Shown here piece by piece: positions 1 to 49,235 of a stretch of DNA of 64,000 bases; positions within the stretch are counted from its first letter, which is position 1, and every line of letters begins with the position of its first letter. The DNA is from Sclerodactyla briareus (Eukaryota; Echinodermata; Holothuroidea; Dendrochirotida; Sclerodactylidae). A program made the translations under genes and the position numbers. Below the pieces are notes generated by a model. That model was not told the DNA's origin, ran no database searches, and saw only the letters and a program-made list of their open reading frames with translations. The stretch is from positions 124,001-188,000 of the forward strand of contig JAODTK010004666.1 of assembly GCA_026419785.1 (NCBI GenBank), in the 5' to 3' direction.

Positions 1-1514
1 GTTACCAGTCTGGGGGACTGTTGCCCGTCTTGGTCATCTCTCTGTGACCTCGCTGCTGGCTATTCTAGTCATCCCTTGTTCAGGCTCATGCATATTCAAC
101 ACCATGATGCACTTCCTAGTTGCGTTAGCTACCAGTACTCTTTCGGGCGACGCTTTGTTTCATCTTCTACCAGAGGTATGTGCGCCTTATGCATGTTATG
201 CTACTTTAATATACTGAGGCTATACCTTCTGGTCGTTGAAAGATAATTCTGCCATGTATTACTCCGATAATTATATCTATAGGCCTATATACTTTTTATG
301 ATGTACTTGCGGAGCGCAAAATCGGAACTATGAAAGGGTATAGACTTGAAGAGTGCACTTTTTGTTAGCTGATCGAGCTGCAAATCCTTCACCAGGTGCC
401 CAAATTAGGCTATGATAGCATGTAAAACCGCCACCGAATTCAGGTGAGATGAGATGGGGGGGTGAGCTGAGCTGGGGTTCAAATGTGTTCTATTAGTTTG
501 CATGATAGATATGGTTTCACAGAGGCAAAGCAAACTTCCTGAATGGAACAAACCTACATGATATAGACAAGATGAGAAATGCATGGCGTTTATAGATGCG
601 TATCACACGAATGAATTCTATACAATATCTCCTTCAAAAAGCCAATCAATGACGATACAATGGGCTGCGTATGTTTTATGGTCTCACGCCAGAAACTATG
701 TGTTCTTTTCTGAAATAAACGGTCATTTTCGTCCGAATGTGTGATTCTTACATCCATCCCGGACACGCATAAGCAACATGGGATCGTACCCTTTGAGAAA
801 TGCTTCTGCGGTCGCACATGAATGTGGAAGTGAATACAAGCAGACGGCAAACTGTCAATTGCTTATCCCACGTTCCTTCCTCTGCAGTACTCGTGTTGAG
901 CGTCTGTGCAGTGCCATTTTCCAGTCCTTGGTAAGGACCGATTAGGATTCCATTCAGGACCCTCACTCCGGGTGGGATGCCGACATTTCTCCAACTGTGC
1001 TAATTATTATCTTGTTCTTTCATCATTATTGGTAGTTTCTTCCAATCCAGTCTTCCCACCCTAAGTGTGTGCCTGTTCTTAGACATTTCATTCAGCGAAC
1101 TGGTGCCTGAGCTGTGGTTGCCATGGTCAGAGTGGTAATTCGGTAACGCTTTATCTCTCTATTAACTGTTGTACAGACAGCACTGGCCCTGCCGTCTGAC
1201 ATTCGCAGCTAGGCGTTGTTCACAGCGGTGCTACAAACTTCACTCCTCTTCCTTTCATCTCTCCCAGTAGGGCATGACACTTCATAATTAGGTAGTGAGA
1301 ATGAGTAAACTTTATTGCATCAAGTAAGGGAATTTGTGTCCCGCACATGAATGTTCCTGTTGCACATCTCATGCTCATTAATCTTTTCGTCTTTTCTTCA
1401 GAGGTTTGGATTTTGTTAGTTTCTGTGTTTCCCGTTGTTTGTAGTTGATACACTGTTCCATTTTTGTTCCAGTGTATTGGTATTCGGCGCCATATTAAGG
1501 ACCTATTTATTATT

Positions 1515-1563
<49 letters not shown>

Positions 1564-4500
1564 GATTGAGTTTATAGATTGAGTTATTTTATTTATTATT
1601 ATTAATATTATTATTAGCTATTCACTAGAGTGGTATGTAGCTGTTCAAGCCTTTGCTTTTCTTGTCTTTGTCTGTCATGGTGCCTATTGTCCCCGTTTGT
1701 GTCTCTCCTGTTGTTCCGCCTTTGTGGGCCCGCGTTTGCGGTATTTCTCTGCCATTCTTTTGGTAGCATTGTCAACACTATTGACTTTGATGCTTTTTAT
1801 TAGTGAGTTAGGTGCTTCCTGCTTGCTAGTGCATTTTCTATCTGCTTTCGTGTTCACTGTGTAGGCCTATCTAGTTTTCTCTTTTCTCAACCAGACCAGA
1901 TGTCGAATAAAAACGTATTAAATTGATACTTGTGGGCATTGTTGTTTTTTCTCTCTCCCGCTGTTAGCTTGTTCGGTGTTCTGTTCGCACACTAGGGAGG
2001 ACAAGTGGTTGTTTTGCTGTGAATGGTTTGGGGTGACTATTTTCGTCCGGGGCTAAGTTTCAAAGAGGTCAGATTCAGGAGACTATAAGTGATGATTTTA
2101 TGTAAGTGCAAGAAGTGTGTCAGGTTAGCGGAATGGGAGGCGGGTACTGGAAAGTGTGGGAATGAGACGGAGTGGTTAGTCCCGGTGTAGGTAATGCAAC
2201 AGAGGTAGCTGTTGACCCCGTCCCTTGTGTTCTAGGAATAGTTTTTTAGTGTGTTGCAGTATAGGAAGGCCGTGCAAGGGTCCGTGGGATGGTGTGCTAT
2301 GTAGGGATAAGGCCAGCTAGAACCGAAGGTTCAGGCATAGGTAGTTGTAGTGAAAGTGGCGGTGGATAAGGGATAATTAAAAGGGTAATTGTTTGGTGGT
2401 TGGGGACTCGATTTGTCCGTTATGTTGATCGTGATTTTAGTCGCGTAGATAAGCCGAAGCGTATAAGCAGTGTACTGAAGCTGCGAGGAAGGTAACTGGA
2501 TTCTTGGCTTGATTGGACGTCACTTCAGTTTTTCTGATGACGCCATGTCAGACCTCACCTGGAGTATTTTGTCTAAGTATGGAATCCATTTTTCTCGAAA
2601 GACACAGGTAAGCAAAAAAAACAGTTCAGGCGGAGGGGCCCTAGACTAGATCATTCTACTCAATGTCTTGAGATTTACTCACACCAGGAAATGTTAACGC
2701 GTCTCTATCTAACTCCGCTGGAGCTGAGACGAATTCGAGCTGATTTTATTCAGGTTTTCAAAATTGTTCATGAATGATTCGAGGGCCTTTCCTTCCACTG
2801 CTTCTTTGGTTTTTAAAGTATCACCCAATAGGGGCCATTGGCCTCAAGCTTTCTAGGAAAACGCGTATGGAAAATGGGAATCGGAGATATTTCTCTTCGC
2901 AGAGAGTTATTAATGAGTGGATAGCTTTCCTGAAGATGTTGTTTGTCCAAGAGTGTGAATGCGTTCAAGCACAGTCTTGATTTATTTTGCAGGAAAATTG
3001 TGGGCGAATTCTTTAGCATCTGGGTTTGTGGTGGCTTCAGGGTTCTCTTCATGAGGTCTTTTGTATTATATATATTATTATTATTATTATATTATTATTA
3101 TTATATTATTATTATTATTATTATTATATTATTATTATTATTAGTAAGATAAACATACTTGACGACAACTGCCTCGTGGTATACATGAAATAAACCTACT
3201 TGCGTCGTAGGCACAACTTGCCACTACACTGCCTATAGAACGACTTGGGAATTTTCGAACAATCTCCCTTTTTGTTGTGTATGAGTTCATGTTTTTTTTA
3301 CAGTATGCATAACATAGTACCTTCTTGACATTTGACAAATTGGACGGCTTTGCTTTTAACTTAGGATAGGCGGACCAAAATAATTGTTATCGCCTCATGA
3401 CATAGACCATTGACATGATATTGGTACTCAAATTGAACATCTCATACGATAGTCTTCCGACAATTTATTTGTTGTGACGTCACTCGCCAGTTACTGCGTC
3501 ATACGCTTGTTGAAAGATGGATGATGCGAAGTAAACGTTAGCCAGTCGCTTCGTGAGCGCGTGAGGTATTTCATTGATTGAGAGGAAGTTCGTCACTGGT
3601 ATGGTCGTTTATAAATTCAGTGGAGCGCCAGCCATCAAGGTACAATTCCTGAAAAAATAAATGAAAAAAAAAAACACACTTAAGATGATAGCGCATAGCT
3701 GTCGTAATCAGTTTATCTTTTGCAAATAGTTTGTTGTCTGCGGTGGCAGTATACAAAGTGAAATTTCTTGAATTGCCAAGGTTTTTCTGTCTGTGCATAC
3801 TACGCAATGGGGAGTGACTATATAGGGTTAGACCGACACAACACGAGAAATACTGACAATCATTGATAGAAAGATGGATTAGAGCCATTTTGGATTGGCT
3901 GGAGTTACCAGAGAACTGCATTTCTCCCAAACAAATTAGATCGATGATTCATGTTGAAAGGTGGTCTCAGGACAACGGCAATGAACTATGTTCGAGCATG
4001 CAGGCTATTTACATCCTCGTGCTCACTGGGTTTTTTCAGCACAGGAGGACATTAAGAAACTAATTGACTATTAACTTGCGAGTTGAGAGAAGCTGATTTA
4101 GGGAAGTCTGTGGAGTTGCAAGGATAAGAAATATTCAAATTCTCCAAATCTGAAATCATCACGCACCATGCACACTGATACAAAAGTTGATTCCATGAAC
4201 TATGAAACCTAATAGTAAATTTTCTTCTTTCCCGCGATATCAGAATAATCTAACAGAGATACTGACATATACTGTACATCACAATAAAATCCTACCTATC
4301 AAATCCAAATGTCACTTTCGTTTATATTCATTTCATAATTTATAGGGTTAACAAATGATTCTTTCTTCAAGCAGACCTGTCATAACTTTTGAAGTGGGAA
4401 AAATCGTACAAGAACCAGAACTAATATTTATGTCTAACGTGTGTGGCTGAATGAACGAAACGACAATAACGTTGGTGGCAACATCTACGTGTTGTGCATT

Positions 4501-7500
4501 GCAGGAATAAGAAAATAGTATTTTTCACGATGAGCTTGTCGACAGGGCACTGGGTTTTTTGTAACACTCGTTGGAGAACATAGCAACATTCAATGCAATA
4601 ATATCCTGGAACCTCAGTACATTGAGTCTTTAATGAGAGGCTGGAGGGCCAGCAAGAGCAATTTCTATTCAGTATTATTACCAGGGGTTCCGGTGTCTTC
4701 CCTATGATTTATGATTGTCTTTTGGTAATAAGTAAACATACTGTTCTGCGCGCGGGATGATGGATGGGGGTTGACCAGTTCTACGAACATGAACTATTGT
4801 GACTCTTTGGCCCAGCAATTGGACGCGTATAGCGTTCTCGATCAAGCAATCATGGTCACTCTCCTGACCGTACCGTAAACACATTTAGTTCATTTCATGA
4901 GAATTCCATTAATACTTCAGGTGGCTGTTCCATCATGCTTAGTTGCTTACAGTTCCAGTTGGCATATCTTCCCTTTCACAATGAAACGAACGATCGTGAC
5001 AAACTTATGAACTGTCTCTCTCTACATGAATTAAATTACGTTAACGGTCCACCGCCTCGTGAATGGTTCACTGACGTCACCCAACGACACCCTGGACTCT
5101 CATTTCGAATAAAGCCTGTCACTCCGTGTTATAGAGGGAAAGCCCCCTTTCCGATGATTTCCCGTCGGAGCAGTGCCGGCGGTTGCATTGCTAGCTTGCT
5201 CCATTTCGTTCTGCTCACTGAATTGGCTCAAATAAAATAATGGCGGGAAACAGTTCAACAGAAGTTCTTCATGCGGTAACTATGACTGAATTTGGTATTC
5301 ATAGATCATGTTACATATGACGCGCTAGAGGCCTCCAGACGTCCTCATTCATTCATACCCGCCTCCGGAAACAAAAACAAACGCTATATACGCATTCATC
5401 CTCAGCGATGAGATTTTATCCACTATTTCTTTCCTGTTGTTAATACATCGCGCATGTCGTGGAAACGCGAAGTAAAGTTCGATTCAGAAGCAAGAAATTG
5501 ACTTTGACGGGGACTTTGACCAAGTAGCAAAGACAGTATAGTAGTGTTTCGTTATGTCAAAACGTGACACGGTGCAGTAGACACGCAAACCACTGGATAG
5601 GCCAAACACGTAAGTGTACTATATACGTGACGTAGATTGCCTGCATACAACCACTGAAATGTTTTAAAATTAATGATTCCCGCATAGCTTAATGAACACG
5701 AAACGTTAGCTACACTATTTTTGTTTCTCTGTGCCGAATAAATTCTTTTTTTACGAATACTTCGTTCAGTTAACCCCATATAAGTGTGTTTTCAACACTT
5801 CGGTTCCAATAGAAGTGAATGTGGCCGAGCGGAAATAGGTCATATTCGCTTCAGCTATAGTGCGCCGACACCACTGTCTGTTAGAACACTTGTATAACCT
5901 GTCACAACAGCGAAAGCTGAACGATTTTTTTCAAAGGTGGAGTGTACCCTCACCGCGATACGACATCGATGAAAGATGAGCGCCTGGAGGCACTCGTCCT
6001 CCTAAAATACATCGTGGAGACACCCCTGCAGTAGATGCAGTGATTGACTTCTTCCCAACAACTTCTATATACAGACACTTGAAGTTTGTCATTTACGTTA
6101 TTAGGGATTGACTTTGTCTTCGGTAGTCTTGTCTACCATACTGTTATGTCCATATCAGTGCCAGTAGAGGCGGCACCGGGGAGGAGGGGGGGGGGGGGGG
6201 GGTTACGCCGCAATTATTGACCATCTGGTTCGACTAGGTGAGACCTGCTGTCTTCCCTTACAGGATGCGTATGCGGGATGCGACACCATGAATAAAAAAT
6301 TGACGCGTGTACAACTATGAAAAGTATCTAAGTAATATGTGATTGCTTGCAGAGATGGAGAATAGTTCCGTTGCGGCAAGAATAATCCAAATCAACTGGA
6401 GCGAACGCTGAGTAGGAGAATCTTGTGTACTAAGTCAACATCAATGTCTCATTACGTCAAATTGATCTATCGAATATCTCCGCCATAAAGCAATTTAACG
6501 TCCCTATTTTATCGGTTGCTGGATATTCGTGCATGGTCCCTTCACGAGGGTATATATATTCCTTCTAAAATAGCACCCTCCCTTCACAGAATTACGATTA
6601 TGTCATGCATAATCGTTGCTCCCCATATCCGCTACTCCAAGCTTTACTCTAATGATCGTGTCTAATATCACGTACAACTGTAGTATTAGTTCCATGCTTG
6701 CTTTCGTATCACCCGACCCGTCACATTCCGTTCCGCTCGCTGAATTGACATGAAACGTTTATATGTATGACGTGAGACGGGTGGGGAACGTTTGATCAAT
6801 ATTTTTCAAGTAGTTCTTGCTATGTAATAGATTTCTAATGAATTTCAGTAGGCAACCTCAATGGCCCAAGCAATTGGAATCAATTTTACTTGTTTAGGTT
6901 AAGCGTGGGTCTGATCCCTAATTCTAACAATGAGTGCAATATATTCTTCATAACAACACACGATTACACTAGCAATCAGCCAGGTTTGGCGTTGTAACAT
7001 CTGCGAATTTCAATTGGACAAATTACCATATCCTGATTCGTTGCACACAACGGCCAACCTAAATAAAAAACATTTAAGAGCTGCTAAATCGTTCTAGAAA
7101 TCGATGCGTTTTCTGCCGGCATATTCACAGATCAGGTTATATCCGATTACCCGTGCTTGTGTAACGTGATTCACTCTGACATTCCAAGCGACTGTCACGC
7201 CCACACCATCGGTTAGGCTATGATAGTTGTCCGAAATGGGATTCACATGAGCTATGCATTTAATCTTCAGACTGTAGTGTAATTTGTTATTGCGAACTTC
7301 TAATTAACTAATGTTCATATTCTTGATACAGCACTCTGTTGGCACGTCCTTTATCACGGGCGTTCTCTTCACTCGTTACGCCTTCATATATTTGTTTGGA
7401 GGATGCGGTTAATTCGAGTCAACAGGAACTCGTCACCGCAACGCGACAAATTTAATTGACTAGAAGGTGTTTCAGTAATAGATTGAGTGGAGCGCTTATT

Positions 7501-10500
7501 TTTAGGTGTCAATGCCTGAGAACCTTTAACGGTGAGAGTGTAACACTGGACTTTCATCGATCACATTCACCAGGGAAGTTACTTGGAGTACCCTAAAAAC
7601 CTTGAGCAAACAGTGCGGTTGTCTAGTTGTCATCACAAAGTGGCAATACCTGAATGAAAGGAATCTCTAATTTTGTTATAGCATCGCAACCAAGAACCCC
7701 GATGTGACAAAAATATGTTAGACCGCACCGAGACCCTATATACCGACATTCCACACAAAAATTAACCATCAATTTTAACTGAAAACAGGGAAGTATGGGA
7801 TTTGCATGGAATTAATATCCAGCAGTAATTAGCATTGTACTTATAGGATTTCCTCTGCCACACACTTGCAGGGCGCATTACAGTGTAAGTATATGTAATA
7901 ATGATTAATCAGAATGTCCAACAAAGTGTGTTGTTGAGGGGCATCAGGTGAGATCGACAGGCTGGTGAAAACTGGATTTCAGGAACTTGACTGAACAACT
8001 CACTTCGCCGAAGACCAAAATGAGTTGATGTATGTGTCTGGGGTTGTAGGCGTGTGTGCTTGCGTGGTGAGTATACTAAGTGTGAAAAGAGGAAAAGGTA
8101 CGCCTCCATAACTCGAGAGGTGGATGCCCCTGAAGTAGATGATCCCTTTGTTTTTGTGCCGATCAAATTATACATCCATGAGTGGGCGTGGAGTGGGAAC
8201 CAAAATAATAAAATGCCCATATCTCGTATAAAATATTACACTACACGTATCTCGGCAGCCGTAGTTCCGATTTCCATCAACCTGTTTCGGTGACATCAGG
8301 TATGAGTGTCAACAGATCCCTAACAGTATGGTGTTTTATTTTCTATACTAACATTCACAAGCACAGGGCCTAATCGGTTCAGCTGACATATTCCCTATTA
8401 GAACACGCAAAGAGAGTGTGCCCCCAAATATGTGGAACGGATGTCAATTTAGTGTATGTGCATTGTCCTTCTTGCTCCTGCTTTTTTCCACAATATTGGG
8501 AAACCATAGAATGCCCATATTTCGTTTCAACAACCGTATATAGGATTTCTTTGGGTACTTGTGTGGGGGACACAGCAAGTATAGTACACCAACAATTACT
8601 AAATTGTATTGGCGTCCTTCATTATTATTCATAATGGGTGGGTTCTAACGCAGTGTCGCTGAACACGATATATCGAAGAAGCACCAAGATGCCCATATAT
8701 AGACTGGTGAATAGATTCAAGGAGTAGATGGTGCCTGTTGATTTGTGCTGTTCTGAAATAATATGTATTGGTGGGTGAGACTTGGAAGCAGAATCATACA
8801 ATGCCATTCCAAATGCAATGCCAATTCTCGACAATCGTGGGTATGATTTTTTTTTTTTTTCGCTGGGAAATGTTGAAGGAATTTCATCAATTTCAATAAA
8901 ATAGGCCAATGCCCGAATGTAAATTGTCAGTTTTAAATTTTCTGATGAGCTAAAAGTATTCATGGACACGAGTCATGAGGTCGCAAGACAGGTACTCTCT
9001 AGCATGTTTCACGGAAACATTTTTTATTTTTTTGATATTCTTCTGTTTGGAGACCCAGTTCACTTGGCTGGGTACCTCGATAGTTCACTGTGTGAGTAAT
9101 GTGTAACAGGAAATACTCACGCATAAGCATAACTTGAGGGGGTAAAACGTCTAGTTTGGCTGGGCTTACAGTTCCCTGGAACCGACTGGTAATGCAGGCT
9201 GGGAGCTGGCTGGTTCTATTCGCACTCCAGATAGTCTGGTTTTTGGGCGGGCTTGCAGTTCCTTAAGACTGACTGGGCATGCCTGGATGGGAGTTGGACG
9301 GTCTACTCACCTTTACACACAGTCGGATTAGGTGAACTTAAAGTTCTCTGAGTTCATTATAGTCATTTTTGTTTTCGTCACAGGCCAGGGGACTCCATTC
9401 CCACGATGATCAAGTTATGCACATCTCCTTCGGTCGGGATAATTTCATATACAAGTTAGTGGCCGCCCTTACGACAATCTACCTATGTTTTCTGTCGAGA
9501 AAATATTCAGGATGTGTTCGAAAAATAGGGAAGAATCTGAGCCTAGTCACGAACACGAGGAGAACGGTGTCAACGGTTTTGCTACGGTAGGCATATTGAG
9601 AATAAGTTATTTGCATTTTTGTTTGGATTAGGCTAGGTCATTTTGTTTTTGGTGGTGGTCCTCCTCTTCTCACCATGGTGAAATTTGAGCCGGTCCGAGT
9701 GCGGTCCGGGCTTGCAATCACTAACCGTATGAGTATGATGCAGGCTGGATGATCTAAAAGCTTAAGGCAGCCTATCATTTGGCATGATGCACATTACGTG
9801 GCCGATAAGCCATAAACTGGTCCTTATTTAAGGCTGGATGACAGCATTACTTCGCTGTGGAACGTTAGCTGTATGACAGCCGAGTCGTTCCGCGGAAATT
9901 CCTTCTGCTATAACAATGTCTTCAGTTGAATATATATGCAAGCATCACGTATATGGTACCTTGTTCTGCTCGCGACACGCGAACCGCCCGAAGATATAAA
10001 CAAACCATGTCGGTTGTGTTCCAACAATGAGTACCCAGACCATATATACCCTCCTGCTACCAACTGCGAATTCAAAAATATTCTTTCGATTGGAACGTGC
10101 AATCTTCAAACCTGCTATTCTAACTATGTAAAATTATTCGTATAGCTGCCCTATGTATGAAATGCCAACAGAACTACGTTATAACTCCCATTCTGAGAAC
10201 TACGCGGTATACTCCCATTTTATGTCTTCATCAACATTCTTGGACAAACCGAACGATTCAAATCCTACTCAGAAATGCAATTAGCGACGAAACTCGGTAC
10301 GATATTCTTTCGTTAATAGATATTTTTTTCATTAATATCGACATATAAGATATGACATGCTGTGTTTGTCAAGCAAATTCGTACACACGTAATTTATTTC
10401 CTGTTGCTCACCGTTAGGGCAATGAAGGCAAATGTCCGATGCTCATACAATAGAGACACATTATATGAAATCACACAATCCAACTGACTGACGATCAAAC

Positions 10501-11734: not shown

Positions 11735-11782
<48 letters not shown>

Positions 11783-14700
11783 GCACACGCACACCACAAA
11801 CACACAAACGCAACACCCCTAATCGAATATATACACGGATTAGCAAAAAGGCGATTGCAAAATCACTACGTGATGGTCCTTCAGGAGAGATTTCACTCGT
11901 GAAGGGCTGAGAAGCACAAAAACGGAACGGTCGGGGCTTCTCGGCCGATAATTCAACACAACATTATTTTTTTCCCAATATTTGTACCGCCCTCCTATCT
12001 GCGGCCTCATAGCAGCTAGTGTACGGAAGCTGGTTATCAGTACCACGTGTTCAAGTTATACAGGCGGAGCCACCAGACCGAGACTACATAGAACATAGGG
12101 CATTCATATTAGGTGGGGTTGGGGGGGGGGATGGGATTGGTGTGGCGGTGGAAGGGTTTGGGGGGATTGTGTGGTGTGGAGGGGGGTTCCGAAGCCCAGT
12201 TCTTCGGTCGACTTGGCTGAGACGCCAGGGCGCCGCTACCTAGTTGGACCAAACTGAAGTTTAAACCATAAAAGATGCAGCGTAAAACTGTTTCTAATCT
12301 ATCTTTGACCTGATATACTACTCTTGTGTGTCAATTAAAAAAAACAGAACTATACAACCTTCCGTTCCCCATCAACGTTTCATTTCGAGAATCGGATTTT
12401 TTTTGTTTTTTTTTTTTTGCAGGAAGAGACAATGAACAACATCAGCGAATAACAGATGGATACAATGTATACTTAGTGTGTTACGTTATGTTCACTCAAC
12501 TAACTCACGACAGGAATAGTAGCGATACTGCAGTGGTTGTTCTATTTAAGTGGTTGTTTCGAACATTAACCATTAATATAGGCCGTTAGTTAACACGCGA
12601 CGCGGGCACCCTGTGCTCCCGTAGCCGGGTAATTCCTTACCAGACCAATGCCAAAACCCCTCCCCGGCATTCCCCAGCCGATTACTCCCCATGGTTATGG
12701 TTCTGCGTAGGTTGGTGGTTAGAGAACGTATGTTGTAGGTGTAGGTATAGGAGTATAAGTTTGTATGCTATATGCCCGGGGGTAGTTGTCCCCAACCCTC
12801 TCCACCACCCGACCCTAATGACATGTTCGTATATGCATTGTCTTTAATCAGCCGTCGGAAATGTCAAAATATCCGATTTGAGCGGCCATAACTCACGTAC
12901 GCGGTATGCCACGAACTATGGGCATGACTCATTCGATTCACTACAAGACAGTTTTCAATTACACTACTTAGTTGTCTTCTCCTTCGCTCATCTCCCGTAA
13001 ATCCTATATAAATGCTCGAGATATCTGATTTTTCATCTCAGTATAGCACCAACACCTGACATCCTGCTCTAACTGTTTGGACGTTTGTACCGTCATACCT
13101 GCAAATTCCCCCCACTGTGAATTCTGATAGTTTTTGGTTAGTGATACTTCCTTTCAAGCCAATATCTGCGCTGTTCTCTTTTAATTACACTACCAATCAA
13201 TATCCATGCTCAACCTTCCCGTTGTTGCAGTTCGATGGGATCATCTCTGACGTTACTCTTACCACGCCGGGTTTGGTCACTACTGAGGCGGTTTAAGACA
13301 GAAAAAAAAAAAAACATCAGGTTCTTACGGCATTCTTAATTAATTTTTCTGCACGGTTCTCCTGAACTTTAAGCCATGTTTCGGAAAGCTATACCGTATA
13401 TGCTATTCTATGGGATGTTATTTGCCCCGAACCTAACAGAACTACAGGCCGTTTGCCATCACCCATCTTCTTTGTCAAGTGATGAATCGCCCCGGTGGAA
13501 AGTAGGGTTAATGTTCTTGAAATTTGCGAAAGCCTCGCTCATGTATGGCATGCAGGACTTTCCTGCATTCAGTTCATCCTTCACTGTAAAATCGCTCCTA
13601 CTCGGAATAGCGGATAATTTTTCCAGGCTGTATTTCATATTACATGTTTGAACAAAATTTATATAGCAAACGTTAGGACCGGACCGGAGCACTCAAAATC
13701 GAACATTACGTTTTACTGGATTCAACATCGCCTTTCGCGGTTTCGCGGGTATATGGCGACAGTTTTGAACTGCTATTTGTGAACCCTGCACACACCGCTG
13801 CTTAATAATCCACGCGCACCTAAACCACTGTAATGAATGTCCGATCTTTGTGTCTCCCTGGATATTTTCAATAGGCCCCCCGGCAACATAAACACTCACC
13901 ATTTTCACAAGATTCACCGATTCAGTTAACCCACCAGAAAAGAGAGAATTATGGCCCTGTCGGCACATTGGCAATATGTCTTGGTATACATTCACCATAG
14001 TATTACTCTACTGGCCCTCGATCAAAATATGCTATTGGATTGTTGTGTGACACTTGGATAATGTGTAAGTAACGGTAAATGCGCTCTTGGAACAAGAAAC
14101 GAAGTTAACTAGGGTATTTGATGACAAAACATCGTATGGGTTTGGATGTTTATTACTGCTACTAATAGGCAGAGGTTTCATGGACCATGGCCTGTCATGG
14201 CCTATTTAACAACATTACATTCGTATTGGTTTGTATATGAACAAAACATCGTATTGGTTTGTATGTTATACCGGTACTGTACTAATAGGCAGAGGTTTCA
14301 TGGACCATGGCCTGTCATGGCCTATTTAACAACATTACATTCGTATTGGTTTGTATATGAACAAAACATTCGTATTGGTTTGTATGTTATACCGGTACTG
14401 TACTAATAGGCAGAGGTTTCATGGACCATGGCCTGTCATGGCCTATTTAACAAACATTACGAAATGCTCGATGCTCCACTCACAGAACTCCGAATGAAAA
14501 AATAAGAAAAGAAATTGAAGTTCTAAACAAAACATTCGTCTCACACTTCGGACACCATGTTCATGGAAACACCTTTGTATACGGCATTTATAATTTAGAG
14601 ACAATGATATATGCAATAACAGTTTCGTCTAACACTGGCATACGTAAGAATAAGATTAACACCTTCCCATTTAAGCGAGTGATTGGCCCAGTGTAGAGTG

Positions 14701-17700
14701 TTGGGAGACCTGGGTTCGATATCCCGGGTCGGGTGTACCAAAGACTTTGAAAAATGGTACCTGATGCATTCTCGCTAGTCAGCACAAGGGATTGGAGCCG
14801 GGACAAAACGAGGGGTAGGCAATTCGCAAGTTGCCGTCTGCGCGAGATTACCCCCGCCCGAGGTACCGCCAAGAAGGCATTGCCTTATTCCATGTACCCG
14901 TTGAAGGATTCGCAGCTGACAATTAGATGCAATATCCAGGTCTGCATCCTTGCTGGGCCTTGTATAGGAGCGATCCTCTGCTCGGCCAGTATACCATAAA
15001 AAAATTGTACCCTGGAAATAATAACGAACCTGTGGATTGTGGAGCATAGATCTGCTTCAGTAGGACATTAAAGTGGTGTGGTGGGCCTATAGTCACGAAT
15101 GAAAACCTGCTAAGATAATGATCGCTGACGACCGTAAACGGTTGTACGTGTTTTTCCTGACAAATAATCCACCCTACTTGTTACTAAATCTAGACTAATG
15201 CCCCTCCCCCTGTCTAAAATGTCTGAATATGCCACTGAACTGCATCTGAACCTTATTGTGTGCCTCTACAATATCCTCGCCTTGTGCTGTGTACATTGTG
15301 TATTGTTTTAGAGGAAGTGCTCGACATGCCATGTAACGTGTTATGGATCTAAATTTAAGGTCCACATTTGCGCTTCGGTGTGAATATACATGCAACAAGA
15401 AGTTGTTCTGTGATCAACCGGCCTATATACGCATATATAAAGCATTGAATCCCCAAACGACTTTAATAGTGTATGAATCATTCATGTTCTCATCAGCGCA
15501 AGACCATCGATCAACTGCTAATGGAACCACTTAAAGAGGAAGAACCCTTCTGCGCTTGTGCAGGTAAGTAAACCCTATGATCAAACACGACGGCCGTAAT
15601 CCTGCCGATCAGATTCACATAAGGGTCTCTTCAGGCCAACGATCTATCAAAATCATGTAATAGCAATGACAGTACTAGTAACCTTGTATAAAAGCAGTGG
15701 CGTACCTCGAGATTCTCCCCTGAGGTCAGGAAGCCGGACCCCCCCCCCCCCCCCTCATCAACCCTCTTATTGGTGAATGAAGGCAACCTATGGCCCCTAA
15801 TTCACATATCAGTGTAGTATCTGGACGGAAACAGCTGTTCAATGTCCGATGAAAGTTTCAAGATTATGTTGGAAATTTTAGTTATTCGCGTAATGGGGAG
15901 GGGAGGCAGATCAATTGAAACCCGTGCGGTACGCAACGGAAAAAGCATTAGTGATGCAATTCAGTATTTATTCGTCCTTTTTATCCCCTAAACACAGGAC
16001 TGAATTCGTCTTCGTTAATCTTGCTTCTGGGGGAGGGGACGCAGTACACAACTTAGGGACGGCTTAGCAATCGGTGTGGCGTTCACCGCAGACTTCTATG
16101 TTGGCATGTCAACGGAAGGTTGCCATCGTGTCATGAAGATGCCACACGATTGGGTGAGTCAAAAAATATACTGCCTAAATTTCTTCTCCCCGACGATGAA
16201 TTACAGGGATTACGTCAAGGCTTTAGACTCTGGTCGCACGGGACATGGAACAGGCTATTCATACCTGGAAGCTGGAAGTCGGGAACGTCTCTGTCCACAG
16301 GCTGTAGAGCCCGGATCAAACTACAACGAAATTCCATCATCACTCTAATCCGATTTTTCGATTCCATACCTCAGGAATACCAATTATATCAACATACTGC
16401 ACTTTTGGCCGAAACACCCAACACCATAGATAATGGACCACGTTCGCATGTTCGGAAATCCTACCCGACCTTTTGACCTCACCCAGCGGAATAGCATTTG
16501 ATCGAATATATTCTCAATTGGTGTACTAGAATTATCACCTATTTTCCACAAACCCTCTTTTCAATCGGCGTAAATTTGAAGATAAAAAATCGTTTCGAAT
16601 CCCGATAATAGAATGCTACATGTATGACAGAAGAATGAAGCTTTGACAGAGAATTTACAACCAGCCAAATACCGAGAAATTGTTAATTCTATTTAGCGAG
16701 ATTAATTTCTATTTCTTACACCTTCGCAGCACGTAGAATACACTATTTGGTAATCGCTTGGCCCCCCGTAGCTGTCATAATACCCTACTCAACTGTCAAG
16801 TGAGGGGCGGTAGTGACCTCGGCCTACGCTATTTAGTAATTTACAGAATAATTTCAACAGATATCTATCAGAAGTAGATAATCTGTGCTGATTCGTTGTT
16901 CTTTCTGTCTAACTTCAGACTATATTTCTTATGCCTATTATCAGGGAATGAACGCTCGATAGGCGGTAATGAAACACATCACATATGCATAACAAAGTAG
17001 GTTAAAAATAATGTATACACGAATGAGAGTTTTTGTGTAGTCCAGTCAATATATGAATGGACCTAGAACAAATTGCAAAAAAGGGTTTCGATTTCATTCG
17101 GTAATGTAGATGTGAGCCATAGATCGAAAGTTCACCGAAATTCACCGTCAGGAAACCTGCTCCTTTTCATTATTCCGAAGTTACATAAGCCACATCATGC
17201 CTACTGACATGAGCGGGGAGACAATCTAGGCCGGGACCGATGTCTGTTCGGAGTCAGTAGAGCGCCCCAACAGAAAAAACAGACCAGGAGTCAGACTGGT
17301 TCCCATGTGGCTCAGACTAGAGTTTCCACTTGGCATCATTTTCGGAAACTGAATTGCTTGACATTTTGCTCTGATATTTTTGTTTAGTACGTCCACTCCC
17401 ACTTTTGTATGGAGGGCCTTGTGTGACCTTCGTTTTTCACCGTTAGCAATATTGTAGAGCTCATCGTTCGTTTGAGATGGATTTCGATCTCTCTGGAATG
17501 CAAGTATTGTTCCTGCTGACCTTCTTGTATTGATCAACTCCTTGTGTGGTTCCCTGCTATGAGTCTGCTCTTACTTTGTCAATGATTTCACACAAGCATA
17601 AGAGCCAGTGGCGTGCACAGCATTTGTGATGTGAGGGGGGGGGGGGGGATTATGAATCCCCCGACTGATATGGGGGAGGGATCTGGGGAAAAATCGTCAA

Positions 17701-20700
17701 TGAATTTGGTCTTTATTACGTCAAATGGCGTCTCGTGAGTCCCGAACCTAATATTAGGGTCCTGTTTACAAATGTTGGGCAAATATTGAAAGGTTGGGAA
17801 CGTAATTCAGCCACCTTACAGTTGGGGGAAACTAAATTGACCAATCAATAGACAAATCGCATGTTAAGCCTATGGGTCATCATTGGAATGGATTATCAAT
17901 TGGTCAATCAATTTGGTCAATTTTTGCCCAACTTTTGAGGTTGTTGAATACTCGCCCAACGTTTTAACAGTGTAGTATTCTGTGATAATAACAGTAACAG
18001 TAATACCCTTGAAATATTGCCCCTGTCCGTCGTCCGGTGTTTTCCAATCAGACTGCATCCAAGTAATTTCCGCCGACTAAATAATCCCTTTCCTCAAACA
18101 CCTCCCGTTGGGCACGCCACTGCATAGGAAGAGCTTGTAGCCAACGCGTTTTCTATCTGTCATCCATGCCACCACTGGTAATGTCGCCTGTATTTTCCAG
18201 TAATCACATCAGTGCCTGTTCTATTACTAGGCCTGTTGGCAGTCAAGCCCGAAAACGATCACTTCTGCGAAATGACAAATGAACCAGCAACGAACCGTTG
18301 AACCGGCAAGTGGATCGACTTGGTCAACATATTGGTGGATATGACCCCTTCCCAAATAGTAAATGTTTTGAAGTCATTCAAAGTTAATAGGAGATTTTCC
18401 AAGTGGTGAGGAGGACATAACCTCCGTCCCCCAGGGTCGTCACTTATTTGGCCCTTTGCTACTTGAACAATCTTGTACGGCTGGGTTCTGTTTCGCAATG
18501 GACACGAAAGAATTTTCGCGTCTGGGAGAATTAGCCCTCTCTATATAATTCTTCCGTGAAAACACGACTGATGCGTTCTAGGCATGCGCCAGACAAAAAA
18601 AAAAAAGAGAAAAAATCACACTGTATATCACGTCTCAATCCCTCTCCTCGAATGATCATTCTGACTCCCATCCTACCTCATATAAGCAGTTTCGGATTTA
18701 CAGTTTAATGATATGATAATGATATTGTGTCTGTCATAGGAATACCCCCAGTTCGATGTTGACGTACAGTGTGCAGAACGATCTTTCGAAGCTCCCCTGC
18801 CGGAAATTACGATCACGCCATCACAAAACTTTACAGATTTTCCTCCATACTTATCAACAATAACATTTGAAAAACATGGGTGAGTTGGTTTGCGTTTTCA
18901 AATAGCAGTGACAGTTTGAAAAATAAGCCGTAACATAATGATAAGGATAAGGAGGGATTAATACCGAATCTCGTCTATTCCCTCAACTGTTCTGTGGTGA
19001 GCATGCGCACTTAGAACTACGAATTGGCTCATTCCCTATGATGTCAACACCGTATTTCCATTCTGTTCATATGGCCCCCCGAAATCATGTTTCAATACAC
19101 TCTGAGATTGCAATCCAATAGTGTAAAAATCAATGTTGTTGAGATTGAGAACCAAATGAGGTGACAGAGGCAGCCATTTTCAATATGCCAAATAGCCATA
19201 GTTCAGTGGCCAGGTTTCGTGTGTTGTACCTTCGATATTCACCACATGGTAGCCACTTTACTATATCAATCAGGAAATCAGACATTGCCCCCTAATTAGG
19301 GTTCCGGCATGTCTTTTTTATCTACCTTGACTGGATTATAGGTTGAACTAGTAGCTTGATCCTTATTGTACATATGAGGTTACTTAACATACCAGTTCCC
19401 AAGGCAATCAATCACGTTAATGTGATAAAAGCCACGTGATCGAGAAATGGACTAGCGGGATGTGCTCGAAGGGCGGCCATTTTCACATATGTGAACTAGC
19501 ACGGTTTCTGAATTCAGTTTCCGGTAAACGTTTGATATGTTGTTAAAGGAGAAACCAAAACTGCAAGTGAGAGAAGAAAAAAAAATCTTTAGTTTGTCTA
19601 TTGTTCTTGGGCTATCCTGATTTTCGATCAAACTTTACTGAACTTGATGCAGTCTTGTGTATTTTTTTCTCAGGCGGACTTAGCAGTGCTTCTGAGAAAC
19701 GGAAGGAATGAGGAAAAGATGGCGCATCTTTTGGAATTTCCTTTCTGCGTTTGGGCGTGCATCGGCCTTTACGTCGGTATCAACATAGCGCATGTGGAAG
19801 CTTTCCATTCTGGGTTTTCGCCGTGATCGCAGCTTCTTCCTATACATTTCACTGGTTCATTGGTGGGCCAACAAATAGTTCAATGCTATGTTACCCTGCT
19901 AACAAAAAATTCGAAAGTGCTGAAACCAGCGATAGGCCTAACTAGTATGTTCCTCGTGTGCACAAGTATAATATGGAAGTGGGGACTACTCCGCCACAGA
20001 TTAAGGCTAACTAAAGGTATGGAAAAGAGGCACAGTGTGAAAATGAGGAAAAGGAATATTATTAACAATTCACTGTGCTGTTGACTTCCTATAATGTCCA
20101 TCCGAAACAGTACACTGGAGAAAAATGCCTATGTTTAATGCAAATTGAAAGTTTATGACACCGTGGCCACAGGGACAATAAAAACTGACAATCATCGCTC
20201 ATGGCTGCTTTGAAACACATCTTAGCCTCATCGGCTACTGGAGAGGGGCCGATGCTCACCTCGACAAAATCTATAAATTTATATAATGAAAAAAAACTTG
20301 TTGGAGGAAAAGGAAATCGTTGAGGGTCAGTGAAAGTGGCCGACAGACATGACTTTGAAGATTATTGATTTCTTCTGATTAGTATAATAAGAGAATCCAT
20401 ACCCAAAACTGCCTTCCGTTGACAAGACAGTCAAAATGAGACGAACCTACATACCCGATGTCTGTATGACATCTCGGTCGGGAGGGGGGGGGGGGGGTGG
20501 GTTCGGTGGGTGGGTCGGTACTGTTCAATGCCAAGCTATGCAAAATTAAATCTCTTGAATCTCCGTTACACGAGACCGGTGAACCTGATTTTATGTGGAG
20601 TGCACACCATCTTAGGAATATATAGATGCGAGCGGTCATTGACTTCGAAGAAGTCATTAATTCAAAATAAAATTACACGCGGGATCCCCTGATATGTAAG

Positions 20701-23700
20701 TTGTTTGTTTCAATTCATGAAATGAAAATATGTTCAAAATATACAATCAAAATAGCCTCTAGGGTTCTCAAATGGTGGCCTCGGGCAAAATCCGAGCAGC
20801 CAGACAAGGGCGGCGATTTGTGTTGGCGGTTGGGGGGGGACCAAGAGAATACAATCTAAGCGGAGTGCCAGCAAGGTTGGCGCGTAGCGGATAAGAAAAT
20901 TTTTCTTTTCCCAGACCCCCTAGATTGCAGGAAACGGCACGCCCCATGCCGCCTGGGACAGTCAGCAGCATTCCTAACATTGATAACAACTTTTTGTATC
21001 TCAGGGAGGTTCTCCAAAAACTTATCGCAATCGGGGTTAATTTCAAGGTTTTGCGTCGGGTGCTGTGGCATTCTGAAATAACGATTCCAAGTGAGGTTGC
21101 AGTATGAAAGGGATCATCGAAATGGACAATGCACACCACCACTACGTTCGCGCGAGCGCGCGAGATTTTGCAGGATCCAATTTCCAATTTGACCAACGAT
21201 CGAACCATTGCACGACACCTTGACTTATCACTTAGAGAGTGACGGCTGAGTTTTTTTTTTTTTTTTTTAAGATTAAGGCACCCGGTCTGATATCTTCTTG
21301 CGGACCACAGGCCGCATTGGGAGGGGAAATTTATACTTGGAGCAAGGACTTGTGTCCAAATGAGATAACACAGAAGTAAAACGCAATGCGCGCGGAGCTG
21401 CGTGCGACGCGCGGAAAAATTTTACACTTTTGGACATGCCATCTAAAAGACAGGCAATCTTTGGATAAAAACTTGTCTTCACCAAAAATTTAAATCATGT
21501 CTTTTTGCACGAAATGTTGGCGTTTCATGGGCCGAATATTCGATGACTTATTTATGGGGTTTCAACCCGCACCGTGTGCCTGCCCACTTAGTATGTGGCA
21601 CCGTGCACGAACCAACTTTCAAAAAAAGGGTTTCGCACCCATAAATTGATTGCGAATACTCTATTTTAAATTTGGGCAGATAGACCATATTGCCAAAACA
21701 AAATCATAGGTCCCGCCGTGGTTTAGACTTAGCCTCATCGCCCCCACATTCTTCCCTTCAAGACCAAAACGAGTTTACACTTTGGGGCATTTCCATCAAA
21801 ATCAGGCAATATTTGGACTTCACTTTTGGACAGCCTTTTCTCACTTGGAATTTTGAATCACGTCTTTCTGACCACGGAATTTGTGCGTTTTCCTGGTTTG
21901 CATTTTCGCATGCCGCAACCGTGTGCCCTCATAGTGATATATGTGACAGCTAGTGCACTCAACTTTAACAAGTGGTCGCACTCATAATGAATAAAAAAAA
22001 ATCCACAGATCCCTCCGGTGGTAGACCTACCCCCGTCGTCTCACCCCCTCACTCAAAGATAGCGATTTGTTTGACAACGTCCATTAAATGAGAGACACAC
22101 CTTAAGTCTGGTGAAGCTAGTCTTATGTAAACGATAGGGATTGGAGTCGAGACCCTTCTTCTTTTGAGAACAACCCGAGTGAATTTCAGGCATTTTTTGT
22201 TATGAACACTATGTCTCAGAAGGGCACAACATGTCTGAACACTACCGACACCTGAATATCCACGCGCAGCGCGCAAAAATTTCGAAATGGAGGCAGCAGA
22301 ATTCCCTAACCGATCATTTAGGTCACTACGCATTTGTTTAAACATTTTGCTGCTGGCATATTTCTGATACAGTTTCCAGCGAAATAGCAGTCGGCGGGCT
22401 CAATATTGGGGGGGACAAAATGCATTGCGTCCGCCCCCAACGCAAATTTGGTGGGGGAGGCCGTCCCCCCGTCCCCCCATGATCGCCCCCTTGCAGCCAG
22501 ATGATGCAATCAGGCCACCATAAATATATGTTAATAACTAATTCTAGGTTTCCAACAAGAAAAGGTAGGAATAATGAACGAACGTTCATACATCCTTGAA
22601 GACGTCGATACATGTCCAAAATGGCACGATCAATAAAATATACAATATCACTTTTTACTCATTATTATTGTGACCACTACAGTTTCTATATAGAATTTTT
22701 CCTTTTCCTCCATTTTTTGCTAAAGGCTCATCCAGTCTAGATTTAACATTTGCGACCCACAATGATCCCTTCTTTGCAATTTTGTGCTACGCTGCGTGAC
22801 AAATCACGGTGCCTGTTGCCCACTTCCTTAATCTAAATGCGCAGATTGATATTTTTTCTAATGTGTGAAGTTCATTTCAATTTGTTAATGTAAAATTTGG
22901 CTTTTGAAAACCACTCATTTGAAAATTGTGCGTACGCCACTGAATGAAGCATCCAATAACAAAAAAAAAGCATATTTTGTGGAGTCGCAAACTTTTTGCG
23001 ATGGGAAGTTAGATTGCATTGTGGAGGAAGAGAAGGGGGGTGGGTCTAGGGGTCCTTTCTATCTTCGAACTTTCTAGGCAGTGGCCTACTATTAAGTGGC
23101 CTCTTCGTTCATTTCAGCACTTTCAGCTAGTGATGCTTTTTTTAAATCTCGTTGGCGATATGACCAACAGATTACTACTTTATACTGAAGAGTAACATTT
23201 AAGCCAGTCCGTTTGGATTATGTACGGAATGATCTGAGGTGGTGAATCATCATATTTCGCTTAAATAGGCTACCATTCTAAGGAGGTGCCTCCGCACAAC
23301 TTCAGCGAGTCAGGCAATGAAGAGGACCAGCCGTTAGATTGAGGGGTGTATTCGGTGGGGAGATATCTCATTAGCGTCTAACAATGACATCAATGTTGCC
23401 CAGCCGAAGCAGAGAAATGAGGTTTACATAACTAACTGGAGCGATCCTGAACGGATGAGTTTATTATTTCAAGGATTTTGGGGGATAAATAGAGGTGTCG
23501 AAGCCCTAAACTCTCGCTTCGGTCGAGATGTCGAGCCTGCACACGAGAAGTCATCATCGTCTTATAGGCAACGAAGACCGAACACTCTCGTTTTTATCGC
23601 CATTCATAGTTACAACTCGAAACAAAAAGTATAAAGAACTAAAAAAAAATGACTCGAAGCCCACCAAAGAAGAATGATTCTCATTCGTTATGGAATATTT

Positions 23701-23889
23701 TTCGCGGCAGTCTGCCATCCAGGGTAACTGCTTGTTTTTTCTTGAATTGACAGGAAAGTTACCAGAGAGACCACCAGAGAGAAGAGGCATCGGACGGGCT
23801 GCTCGAGTTCGGTGTTTGTTTTCCAGAATACTCGCCCTCTTTATCGGTGGGGCTCGATTGCTTTGCTCGCGCTCTACGAGAACCAGTGA
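1..23889 (+). CDS. SLC39: ZIP-family (SLC39) zinc transporter gene, 5'-truncated by window, at least 5 exons
   Basis: Multi-exon gene for a ZIP metal transporter, a membrane protein that moves Zn2+ (sometimes Fe or Mn) into the cytosol. Seen: exons read in order carry the family landmarks TLSGDALFHLLPE, GDAVHN..DGLAIG, a HExPHExG-type signature, LAVLLRNG, IGLYVGINIA, WVFAVIA, FFLYISLV and a C-terminus ending IALLALYENQ then stop. The order and spacing match the ZIP4/ZIP12 side of the family, including a short loop ending just before the GDAVHN helix. The N-terminal extracellular domain and first exons lie left of base 1. Introns are large (up to about 15 kb) and contain LINE, hAT and SINE debris. 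Oddity: exons at 16.0 and 19.7 kb need several 1-2 base shifts to read through, although exon 1 (58 codons) is clean. So this is either a real gene with uncorrected indels or a recent pseudogene. The family call is firm; the subgroup is inferred. Confidence 0.85.
2..175 (+). CDS. SLC39: ZIP exon: first transmembrane segments
   Basis: An open frame of 58 codons runs from base 2 to a donor GAG|GTATGT at 176. It opens with LPVWGTVARLGHLSVTSLLA and ends with HFLVALATSTLSGDALFHLLPE split over the last 22 codons. The ending is the classic ZIP TM2 signature (known family form: LAVGTLSGDALLHLLP). The first half is a hydrophobic TM1 (SVTSLLAILVIP). The exon ends in phase 0. There is no frame break here, unlike downstream exons. 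The true 5' edge of the exon cannot be seen because the window begins inside it or at its acceptor. Confidence 0.88.
176..2394. other. Intron of the ZIP gene, mostly unassigned
   Basis: Begins with the GTATGT donor. I see no exon-like stretch with good splice sites. It contains the AAT microsatellite at about 1509-1562. The rest is unique-looking or too decayed to classify. Confidence 0.5.
1509..1562. repeat. (AAT)n microsatellite
   Basis: About 18 uninterrupted AAT units, followed by a TTA/ATT-rich fringe to about 1615. Confidence 0.97.
2395..3030 (+). mobile_element. CR1/L2-type LINE, C-terminal reverse-transcriptase fragment
   Basis: Three-frame reading gives the usual order of the C-terminal part of a CR1/L2 LINE: KQCTEAARK (around 2465-2490), VRPHLEYFV plus W-N-P-F-F-S-K-D (about 2545-2605), LELRRIRADFIQVFKIVHE (about 2715-2770), LKLSRKTRMENGNRRYFSSQ and RVINEW (about 2845-2920), then KSVNAFKHSLD (about 2946-2980). 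Known elements read KQCTEAAKKAN, VRPHLEYCVQ, RRLRGDLIEVFKI and SFSQRVVDEWNSLP at these points. The copy has many frame changes and stops and lies in the sense orientation inside a ZIP intron. Endonuclease and upstream RT parts are absent. Confidence 0.8.
3063..3145. repeat. (ATT)n microsatellite
   Basis: Interrupted ATT/TATT array directly after the LINE fragment. CR1/L2 LINEs often end in short tandem repeats, so it may mark the element's 3' end. Confidence 0.93.
3146..5870. other. Intronic stretch without recognised features
   Basis: Several open frames of 60-120 codons occur on both strands (for example 3571-3930 minus), but none has recognisable motifs or matched splice sites. I see nothing I can name. 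Confidence 0.4.
5875..6085 (+). mobile_element. hAT-superfamily transposase, C-terminal dimerisation-domain fragment
   Basis: Reading across a couple of frame changes gives PVTTAKAERFFS (about 5898-5935), TTSMKDERLEALVLLK (about 5962-6010) and AVDAVIDFF (about 6029-6055). In hAT transposases the C-terminal hAT domain reads PVTTATAERSFS, then LRSTM..ERLNALALL, then a V-D-A-V-I-D-x-F segment. The order and spacing fit. The N-terminal zinc finger and catalytic core are not seen, so this is a small decayed remnant in a ZIP intron. Confidence 0.7.
6183..6202. repeat. Poly-G tract
   Basis: A run of almost only G. Similar runs recur in the window. Confidence 0.9.
6210..9148. other. Intronic stretch, weak dispersed repeats only
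   Basis: The phrase atgcccatat recurs at about 8214, 8513 and 8691 with loosely similar flanks (gggaaccaaaataataaa / gggaaaccatagaat), which suggests old repeat units a few hundred bases apart. No coding exon is recognised. Confidence 0.35.
9149..9355 (+). repeat. Minisatellite, about 86 bp period, 2.4 units
   Basis: Units begin GTCTAGTTTGGCTGGGCTTA (9149), GTCTGGTTTTTGGGCGGGCT (9234) and GTCGGATTAGGTGAACTTA (9322). Each contains (T/C)TTACAGTTCC or CTTGCAGTTCC and, in full units, a GACTGG core and a GGGAG(C/T)TGG block. Divergence between units is about 25-30%, so the array is old. Confidence 0.75.
10593..10872 (-). CDS. Candidate exon of an unknown gene nested in a ZIP intron
   Basis: On the minus strand a 280-base open segment lies between acceptor cgtcagttttcag and a strong donor GTG|GTGAGTAAG. 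It would encode 93 residues, with segments such as YLRKINGIELLTVLIVTNVP near the start and QDENASGDPIQRSDVW near the end. The composition looks protein-like, but I recognise no family. No partner exon was found. A chance open frame remains possible. Confidence 0.33.
11735..11782. repeat. (AC)n microsatellite
   Basis: About 22 CA units within a wider CA-rich region to 11815. Confidence 0.95.
12113..12190. repeat. G-rich low-complexity tract
   Basis: Repeated GGGG/GTGG runs on the plus strand over about 80 bases. Confidence 0.8.
12600..13370. other. Intronic stretch, nothing recognised
   Basis: No exon with paired splice signals, no repeat that I can match elsewhere in the window. Confidence 0.4.
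13450..13543 (+). CDS. Possible ZIP exon covering the TM2-TM3 linker and TM3
   Basis: After an AG at 13448-13449 (ctacag) a phase-0 frame reads AVCHHPSSLSSDESPRWKVG and then LMFLKFAKASLM. ZIP proteins of this group have a His/acidic linker, then W-K and a hydrophobic TM3 at this point, and the preceding exon ends in phase 0, so position and phase fit. However, the TM3 core lacks the usual GGIYxFFLFE match and the donor is unclear (GTATGG at about 13544 or GTAAAA near 13584). Opposite-strand frames are also open here. Tentative. Confidence 0.3.
14122..14460 (+). repeat. Tandem repeat, 120-121 bp period, about 2.8 units
   Basis: Near-identical units start at 14161, 14281 and 14402 (third unit partial), with a degraded partial unit before the first. 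Units 1 and 2 differ essentially by one base. Each holds a palindrome-rich core around CATGGACCATGGCCTGTCAT and an internal half-repeat, TCGTATTGGTTTGTAT, occurring twice per unit. Near identity means recent duplication. Confidence 0.95.
14671..15003 (+). mobile_element. tRNA-derived SINE family A, copy 1
   Basis: A tRNA-like head has a B box CTGGGTTCGATATCCC (about 14711), then GTCGGGTGTACCAAAGACTTT, TTCTCGCTAGTCAGCACAAG, CCAGGTCTGCATCCTTGCT and GATCCTCTGCTCGGCC, ending ATACCATAAAAAA. Copy 2 at 54.4 kb shows the same blocks in the same order. The A box is degenerate here. This is a non-autonomous element expected to be transcribed by RNA polymerase III. Confidence 0.82.
15497..15563 (+). CDS. 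SLC39: ZIP exon: end of the cytoplasmic loop
   Basis: A 67-base exon lies between acceptor tgttctcatcag and donor gcag|GTAAGTA. It reads RKTIDQLLMEPLKEEEPFCA then CA plus one base. The leftover G joins the first two bases of the next exon (15998) to give Gly, so the phases agree. ZIP4/ZIP12-type proteins have an acidic stretch ending near a Cys just before the GD..HN helix, which fits. Alone it would be weak; position, phase and good splice sites raise it. Confidence 0.6.
15695..15760 (+). mobile_element. Solo left terminus of a CAGTGGCGT-type DNA transposon
   Basis: CAGTGGCGTACCTCGAG starts like the terminal inverted repeat of the element at 17606-18122 and is followed by a C-rich tract (about 15738-15754). 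No matching right end lies nearby; a lone right end, GTACGCCACTG, is at about 22932-22942. Confidence 0.4.
15998..16153 (+). CDS. SLC39: ZIP exon: metal-site helices (HNxxDG and HExPHExG)
   Basis: A 156-base exon lies between acceptor taaacacag and donor TTGG|GTGAGT. It contains SSLILLLG, then GDAVHN (16035-16052), then DGLAIGVAF (16058-16084), then TADFYVGMST, and the signature at 16132-16153, where the bases CATGAA.ATG.CCACAC.GA.TTGG can be read as H-E-M-P-H-(D/E)-L-G. In known ZIPs these two helices carry the His/Asp/Glu ligands of the binuclear metal centre. Between these blocks the frame changes by one or two bases about five times, with residues otherwise conserved. This is typical of indel errors or of a very young pseudogene. 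Confidence 0.82.
16160..17600. other. ZIP intron, nothing recognised
   Basis: Open frames through 16476 are read-through from the ZIP exon into its intron. No further exon or repeat is recognised. Confidence 0.4.
17606..18122. mobile_element. Non-autonomous DNA transposon (hAT-like MITE), 517 bp
   Basis: The left end CAGTGGCGTGCACAG and the right end GGGCACGCCACTG form an 11-base terminal inverted repeat, with weaker complementarity further in (GTGAGGGGG versus the reverse of CCTCAAACACCTCCC). Flanks CATAAGAG and CATAGGAA may be an imperfect 8-bp target duplication, as hAT elements make. No transposase frame is present. Ends of the CAGTGGCGT type are common among hAT-like MITEs. Confidence 0.65.
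18123..19673. other. ZIP intron, nothing firmly recognised
   Basis: A short open segment at 18740-18879 has plausible splice sites but does not fit the ZIP protein (see rejected items). Confidence 0.4.
19674..19877 (+). CDS. SLC39: ZIP exon: TM5-TM7 region
   Basis: A strong acceptor (gtatttttttctcag) precedes DLAVLLRNG, the segment that follows HExPHExGD in ZIPs. Further on come LLNFLSA-like bases, CIGLYVGINIA (IGLYVGINIA at 19761-19790), WVFAVIA (19811-19831) and FFLYISLV (19834-19857), then a degraded D-M-V-P region. These match, in order, ZIP helices 5, 6 and 7. At least four single or double base shifts are needed to read across. The 3' edge is not marked by a clear donor; I end it where similarity ends. 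Confidence 0.82.
20483..20497. repeat. Poly-G tract
   Basis: G run with a GGTGGGTTCGGTGGGTGGG tail. Confidence 0.9.
20760..22530. repeat. Composite of decayed repeats with GC-palindrome motifs
   Basis: Motifs of the form GCGCG..GCGCG next to AAAATTTT or GATTTTGC recur at about 21148-21170, 21388-21423 and 22260-22285. A diverged direct duplication with about 353-base offset links 21424 (ACACTTTTGGACATGCCATC) and 21777 (ACACTTTGGGGCATTTCCATC), continuing through AGGCAAT(C/A)TTTGGA and (A/C)ATGTCTTTTTG-like blocks. The long minus-strand open frame here (20768-21208) is judged a by-product. Confidence 0.5.
22932..22942 (-). mobile_element. Solo right terminus of a CAGTGGCGT-type DNA transposon
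   Basis: GTACGCCACTG is the reverse complement of CAGTGGCGTAC, the terminus seen at 15695. The matching left end was not found close by. Confidence 0.35.
23754..23889 (+). CDS. SLC39: ZIP terminal coding exon with stop codon
   Basis: Acceptor ttttttcttgaattgacag is followed by a frame reading SSVFVFQN, then TRPLYRWGS and IALLALYENQ (23857-23886), then TGA at 23887-23889. ZIP4/ZIP12 proteins end in the same way: F-L-L-Q-N, a glycine-rich helix with G-W, then L-L-L-A-(I/L)-Y-E and a few residues. Glycines expected in LLLGW are changed to TRPLYRW, again compatible with frame noise or decay. No AATAAA is seen in the next few hundred bases; an ATTAAA lies near 24144. Confidence 0.75.
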
Positions 23890-48100: not shown

Positions 48101-49183
48101 TAATGAGACCCCGGTGTTTTGGTAGTTTGGAAAATAGCTTCTCAAACTATACCGTTGTTTTTCTGTGAGGCTTCCCGCCCGAGAGTTTGTCCATATTAAT
48201 TTTGCCCGGCTGCGTGTTTTCACATGTTAAGAAGCGCTAATCAAATCAATTTTCTGGAAATCTTGTCTCGCCCTATTTCTGAAATGATAACTTCCCGGTA
48301 TGGTTGCTGATTCTGGACGCCAGGCTATGAAGGACACACACGAGATCCCCGGAATACAGACCCTAAACTGTTTCACAAACCATTACCATAGTTTTCTGAC
48401 AAGGTTCAAACCTTGTGAACAATCTAAATTGGCCTATCGAAGTAAGAATAAACATAGAGCGATCCAGTTTTCTACTAGGATGGGTGTGAAATCATTGTAT
48501 GGATTTGCTGGATGTGCTACGAAAAAGAAGCAAAGAATCCAGGTTCAGCATATACCCCCTGAGAAGAAATAGGTCCAAAGTAATTGCCCAGAAACAATAA
48601 CCGTGACCGAAAATACAGGTTCTGCTTGGCCCTTACAATCACAACGTTTCTCCTGGAAAATTACGCCTCTGGAGAACAATGCCATTCATTTTTCATAGAA
48701 ATATACCTCCATTGCGCACGAAAAACGACCCAAAAACTACAAATTCGGTCAGTAATGCTACATTAAGATACGACTGAAAAGATCAAAATCGTGTAACTGG
48801 TCTATCACGAATGAGTGTATGGATACTGTGCAGTCATCATGGAACTAATGAAGTTGAAAGGAAAGGGGTAATTTGTCCTCCCCAAGCGAAAAATGAGCCG
48901 TTTCAGGATGCAAGTTGCGCAAGCCTTCATCTAAAAACCGCCCGTACAGTATATTCTCCCAGGCCTATTGTATTATATATTAATTATATAATATATTATA
49001 TCATATATATATATAATATATATATATATAGATTATATATATATATATATATATATATAGATATATATATATTATATATAAGGTATATATATATATCTAT
49101 ATATAGATATAGTATAGATATATATCTATATATATTATATATTATATAGGAATATATATTTCTATATATACCTAACCCTTCCC

Positions 49184-49235
<52 letters not shown>

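Follow-up and report, generated by a model that had tools for sequence, protein, structure and literature searches.

Few metal importers are better known than the ZIP (SLC39) transporters, several kinds of which can be set beside the gene that we describe here. SLC39A4 (ZIP4) and SLC39A12 (ZIP12) have the same order of eight transmembrane helices (TM1 to TM8) as our gene, with the letters of HN..DG in TM4 and of CHE.PH in TM5 and a short TM2–TM3 loop, and they also have in common with it HLLP. followed by GLH.H, which reads GLHTH in ZIP4 and, after HLLPE, GLHSH in our gene. The SLC39A6/SLC39A10 type appears to share the CHE.PHELG motif; its reference carries a long His-rich TM2–TM3 insert that our gene lacks. 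The SLC39A8/SLC39A14 type again has this helix order, together with IPE/LPE and the VEKI.. of TM3, but TM5 of ZIP14 has CEE where our gene has CHE, and the CHE.PH of TM5 excludes a ZIP8/14-like CEE motif. More distant are the bacterial ZIP of structure 5tsa, which we take to be BbZIP, and ZupT: the TM4–TM7 region aligns with them, and 5tsa reads HNLPEG, with E in place of the D of HN..DG.

The window, that is the whole stretch of 64,000 nucleotides of Sclerodactyla briareus DNA that was analysed, is confirmed at the level of its letters to hold, in short exons within its first ~24,000 bases, the membrane-domain half of a ZIP gene of ordinary animal type. We think it likely, and well short of certain, that the following holds jointly: the locus, with five well-placed exons and a sixth, probable exon, represents the 3' half of a LIV-1-kind SLC39 (ZIP) gene from an animal; this gene is functional in its host; and its frame changes are for the most part short indel errors of the assembled sequence and not mutations.

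What does the locus encode?

The landmarks of a ZIP protein follow one another from TM1–2 to the C-terminus on the plus strand between 3 and 23889, both in a three-frame display and in spliced traces (Table 1). This is what the initial annotation had claimed, and co-linear spliced alignments bear it out, with matches at E1, E2, E4, E5 and E6 and all eight TM segments, as named by alignment, in order on one strand. A frameshift-tolerant protein-to-genome alignment, one of the checks that it had proposed, gives one co-linear plus-strand match, consistent in order and strand. The splice dinucleotides are intact, with AG acceptors at five of the five exons checked and GT donors, and the start of E2 is matched exactly by the ZIP4 trace. 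E3 is a probable exon whose sole basis is splice phase: with E2 ending in phase 0 and E4 entered from E3 in phase 1, its phases fit both neighbours.

Together the six exons would encode the eight-helix core of a zinc/iron importer in which, going by what is known of the family, TM4 (HN..DG) and TM5 (HE.PH) would together make up the metal site through which zinc reaches the cytosol. The N-terminal half or extracellular domain, if present, would fall upstream of the first base of the window.

Table 1. Exons of the ZIP gene and other features of the window
Feature	Positions	Strand	Content	Splice signals	Frame changes
E1	3..175	+	TM1–TM2: ..LLPVLVISL / TSLLAILVIPC..FLVALATSTLSGDALFHLLPE; placed by spliced traces and hand tracking; 5' end uncertain (window edge)	donor GTATGT at 176	1
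E2	9384..9586	+	ARGLHSHDD.., TM3, ..VEKIFRMC.., His/Glu-rich loop	acceptor CACAG, donor GTAGGC	1
E3 (candidate)	15497..15563	+	short variable-loop exon RKTIDQLLMEPLKEEEPFCACA; open throughout	donor GTAAGT	
E4	15998..16153	+	TM4–TM5: LNSSSLILLLG / GDAVHNL / DGLAIGVAFTADFYVGMST / VAIV / CHE / MPH	donor GTGAGT at 16154	3 (trace) to 6 (hand)
E5	19674..19862	+	TM6–TM7: ADLAVLLRNG.. / FWNFLSAF / ACIGLYVGIN.. / PFWVFAVIA / FFLYISLVH	acceptor CTCAG, weak donor GTGGGC at 19863	4
E6	23754..23889	+	TM8, C-terminus: LPE.. / ..GLLEFGVCF / QN / LALFIG / WGSIALLALYENQ, then stop codon (23887..23889)		3 (trace) to 4 (hand)
Dispersed repeat, two copies	14712..15004 and 54450..54725		72.5% alike, 41 mismatches, 16 gap openings		
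Tandem repeat	14124..14460		120-base unit, 2.8 copies, 95% matches, 3% indels		
TA array	48974..49410		long and degenerate, ~437 bases		
Penelope-like ORF	32729..33097 and ~33300..33400	+	resembles part of a Penelope-like retroelement (..KKTHTDLYLKFHSNHLL.HKLGVVRTLL..)		
LINE-like piece	45764..46117	-	resembles a LINE reverse transcriptase		
Signal-peptide-like piece	~38845..38935	+	MLCRLPFVCWAILAFLSLQWEVHRVSVG	followed by GT	

Could the resemblance be due to chance?

Scattered hydrophobic pieces of intron or spacer might come to resemble a ZIP once their frames are chosen by eye, and a local protein-to-DNA alignment allowing frame changes and GT-AG introns was therefore written to avoid such choices. 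Its references were hand-typed membrane domains of four ZIPs, namely ZIP4, ZIP12, ZIP14 and one ZIP6/10-type, labelled ZIP10, which may be ZIP6; of these, ZIP4 and ZIP12 were checked and gave Pfam Zip matches of 1.5e-62 and 1.3e-59. On the plus strand of 1-24500 the scores are 294 (ZIP4), 298 (ZIP12), 260 (ZIP14, the lowest) and 345 (ZIP6/10-type, the highest, part of which comes from low-complexity micro-exons). The minus strand of the same stretch gives 109, 118, 117 and 125, respectively, and 40 dinucleotide shuffles per reference, or 160 runs, give means of 105.5–115.8 and maxima of 124, 125, 135 and 139. Elsewhere in the window (two regions, both strands, four references) the 16 values range from 85 to 169, the top one being a chain of scattered, partly His-rich pieces over ~19 kb.

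Exon by exon, the best score from the four references was compared with the highest from 240 permuted references. E1 (118 against 50), E4 (97 against 43) and E5 (97 against 49) each reach about twice the permuted maximum, E2 (54 against 49) and E6 (52 against 44) stand slightly above it, and E3, at 30 against 43, has no sequence similarity to the four ZIP references. In addition, the ZIP4 trace misses E6, and the ZIP12 trace misses E2 and fills the gap with spurious micro-exons. E2 and E6, being weak alone, thus lean on co-linearity, and we accept them because they lie in the right order and place, have splice signals at their borders and can be read as TM3 in the one case and TM8 plus stop codon in the other.

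Profile searches tell a similar story. The hand-joined read-through matches Pfam Zip (PF02535) at 1e-24 with 87.8 bits against a cut-off of 35.1, a score inflated by hand-chosen frames, and none of eight single-frame pieces passes that cut-off, E1 alone among them matching at all (frame 2-175, 2.9e-4, 20.6 bits). The joined sequence also matches 5tsa at 1.5e-4; its match to the ZupT model of NCBIfam, at 1.7e-5, falls far short of the 252-bit cut-off of that model. Searches of the PDB with single-frame E1 and E5 returned no ZIP, and for E5 nothing at all; the one match of E1, at E 0.086, is unrelated, and we ascribe to chance the weak Pfam side matches that E5 and the joined sequence gave (E 0.03-0.16). 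Inflation of the joined score, and the closeness of E2, E3 and E6 to their permuted references, are what a chance resemblance has in its favour. The strand, shuffle and permuted-reference comparisons refute it, and we give it next to no weight.

Which ZIP is it?

The label SLC39A4/A12 that the initial annotation had attached stands in part. An SLC39 gene it is, and GLH.H after HLLPE leans towards ZIP4/ZIP12, but the finer name is not secured, with identities of 36–38% to all four references: 104/275 (37.8%) to ZIP4, 99/276 (35.9%) to ZIP12, 105/289 to the ZIP6/10-type and 100/276 to ZIP14. ZIP4 and ZIP12 themselves share 145/304, and our gene differs from both in being frame-broken, with its N-terminal extracellular half outside the window, and in an identity to them no higher than that to other ZIPs. 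According to PMC4222902, ZIP12 was not found in sea urchin, lancelet, fly or worm, and attempts outside vertebrates to distinguish it from ZIP4, including in invertebrate chordates and deuterostomes, were unsuccessful or inconclusive. Since identity favours no reference and this distinction failed or gave no clear answer outside vertebrates, we leave the gene unplaced: by its letters it appears to be a LIV-1-kind ZIP whose closest resemblance, in one motif, is to ZIP4/ZIP12. That it is an invertebrate ZIP4/ZIP12-type gene, near the state before the two separated, seems to us unlikely.

Why are the reading frames broken?

The claim that several exons are frame-broken has proved right. Combined, the traces give 12 frame changes (11 in the ZIP12 trace and one in E2 from other traces) and hand tracking of 299 codons in open pieces gives 16, all within ~0.86 kb of exon. 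They are denser in E4–E6 than in E1–E2, which counts against sequence error as their cause, and the spliced exons do not form one open frame in the assembled sequence. The letters HN, DG, CHE and PH can all be seen, although they do not share one frame and frame breaks separate them, and the last E of HE.PHE is unreadable in frame. The exons were also said to give no ORF of note, and indeed, while 121 stop-to-stop ORFs of at least 60 aa overlap 1-26000 on both strands, those with sizeable ZIP pieces span only ~60–110 aa, and one ORF of 139 aa (16057-16476) overlaps E4 for the most part in a different frame; ORF length therefore does not reveal the gene.

A working gene misread in assembly and a recently dead one would look similar, and the main rival is a ZIP pseudogene, unitary or duplicated, that has kept its introns and whose frame changes are true mutations. 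We regard it as a serious but clearly less probable reading. It draws on the sheer number of frame changes, on the weak E5 donor and on the lack of a homopolymer link among the frame changes: 7 of the 16 touch runs of at least 3 against 5.1 expected (P 0.22), and 4 of the 16 touch runs of at least 4 against 1.9 expected (P 0.12), neither a significant association. Against it, the letters of the metal site (HN..DG and HE.PH) are kept. Moreover, among the 64 columns in which all four references agree, our gene has the invariant residue in 45, an X or a gap in 8 and another residue in 11, the change being conservative in 9 of these 11 against 5.45 expected under random change (P 0.018, one column being doubtfully aligned). 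Many short frame changes combined with amino-acid constraint make up the pattern that assembly errors would be expected to leave.

Nor was any nonsense change seen, either in the true exons of the traces or in the hand-tracked codons, an absence that in the latter is partly built in because open pieces were selected. With a substitution-to-indel ratio of 8-10, a dead gene should show 3.3-4.1 stops, and the probability of none is 0.038-0.017. A literature search for this ratio gave no usable published figure, so that the neutral values of 8-10 are assumed, and at a likewise assumed ratio of 4 the probability of no stop is 0.19, which means that the stop-codon test separates a dead gene from error weakly.

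A third reading, in which a working ZIP mRNA is truly translated across the frame changes by programmed frameshifting or editing, has nothing to recommend it beyond the frame breaks themselves; these are too many and lack a common sequence, we know of no precedent in ZIP genes, and we consider it barely credible. We return to a working gene broken by sequence error. The 12 self-repeat pairs of the window, which partly overlap, hold 200 mismatches and 60 gap openings, and most interruptions of its trinucleotide arrays are slips of a single base. These indels fit an indel-rich sequence without proving error, and those of the self-repeats need not be errors because the repeats are partly old mobile elements and overlap mutually. 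Long-read drafts are known to break genes by such frame errors, according to PMC12007338.

What else lies in the window?

Outside the exons, the two copies of one dispersed repeat are SINE-like by look, and the signal-peptide-like piece looks like the first exon of another gene. Eight other ORFs of the window, among them the one that holds this piece and the Penelope-like and LINE-like ones, have no Pfam match at 0.01, and a search of the window for RNA families and tRNAs found none.

What does this mean for annotation and for the family?

That a standard annotation would report nothing here, as was first supposed, is doubtful. Bacterial-style ORF calling normally misses any animal gene rich in introns, and pipelines for eukaryotes carry protein alignments over introns and in many cases cope with frameshifts. 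Where short frame changes reach 1-2% over small exons, a gene is hidden in ORF lists and plain to protein alignment that tolerates splicing and frameshifts. ZIP transporters are so well known that one extra copy changes little; counts of ZIP genes in this animal could, even so, wrongly score the locus as lost or dead. Finally, should the gene truly be of the ZIP4/ZIP12 type from before the split, a well-read invertebrate copy could help to date the separation of ZIP4 from ZIP12, given that in PMC4222902 attempts to tell the two apart outside vertebrates failed or gave no clear answer.
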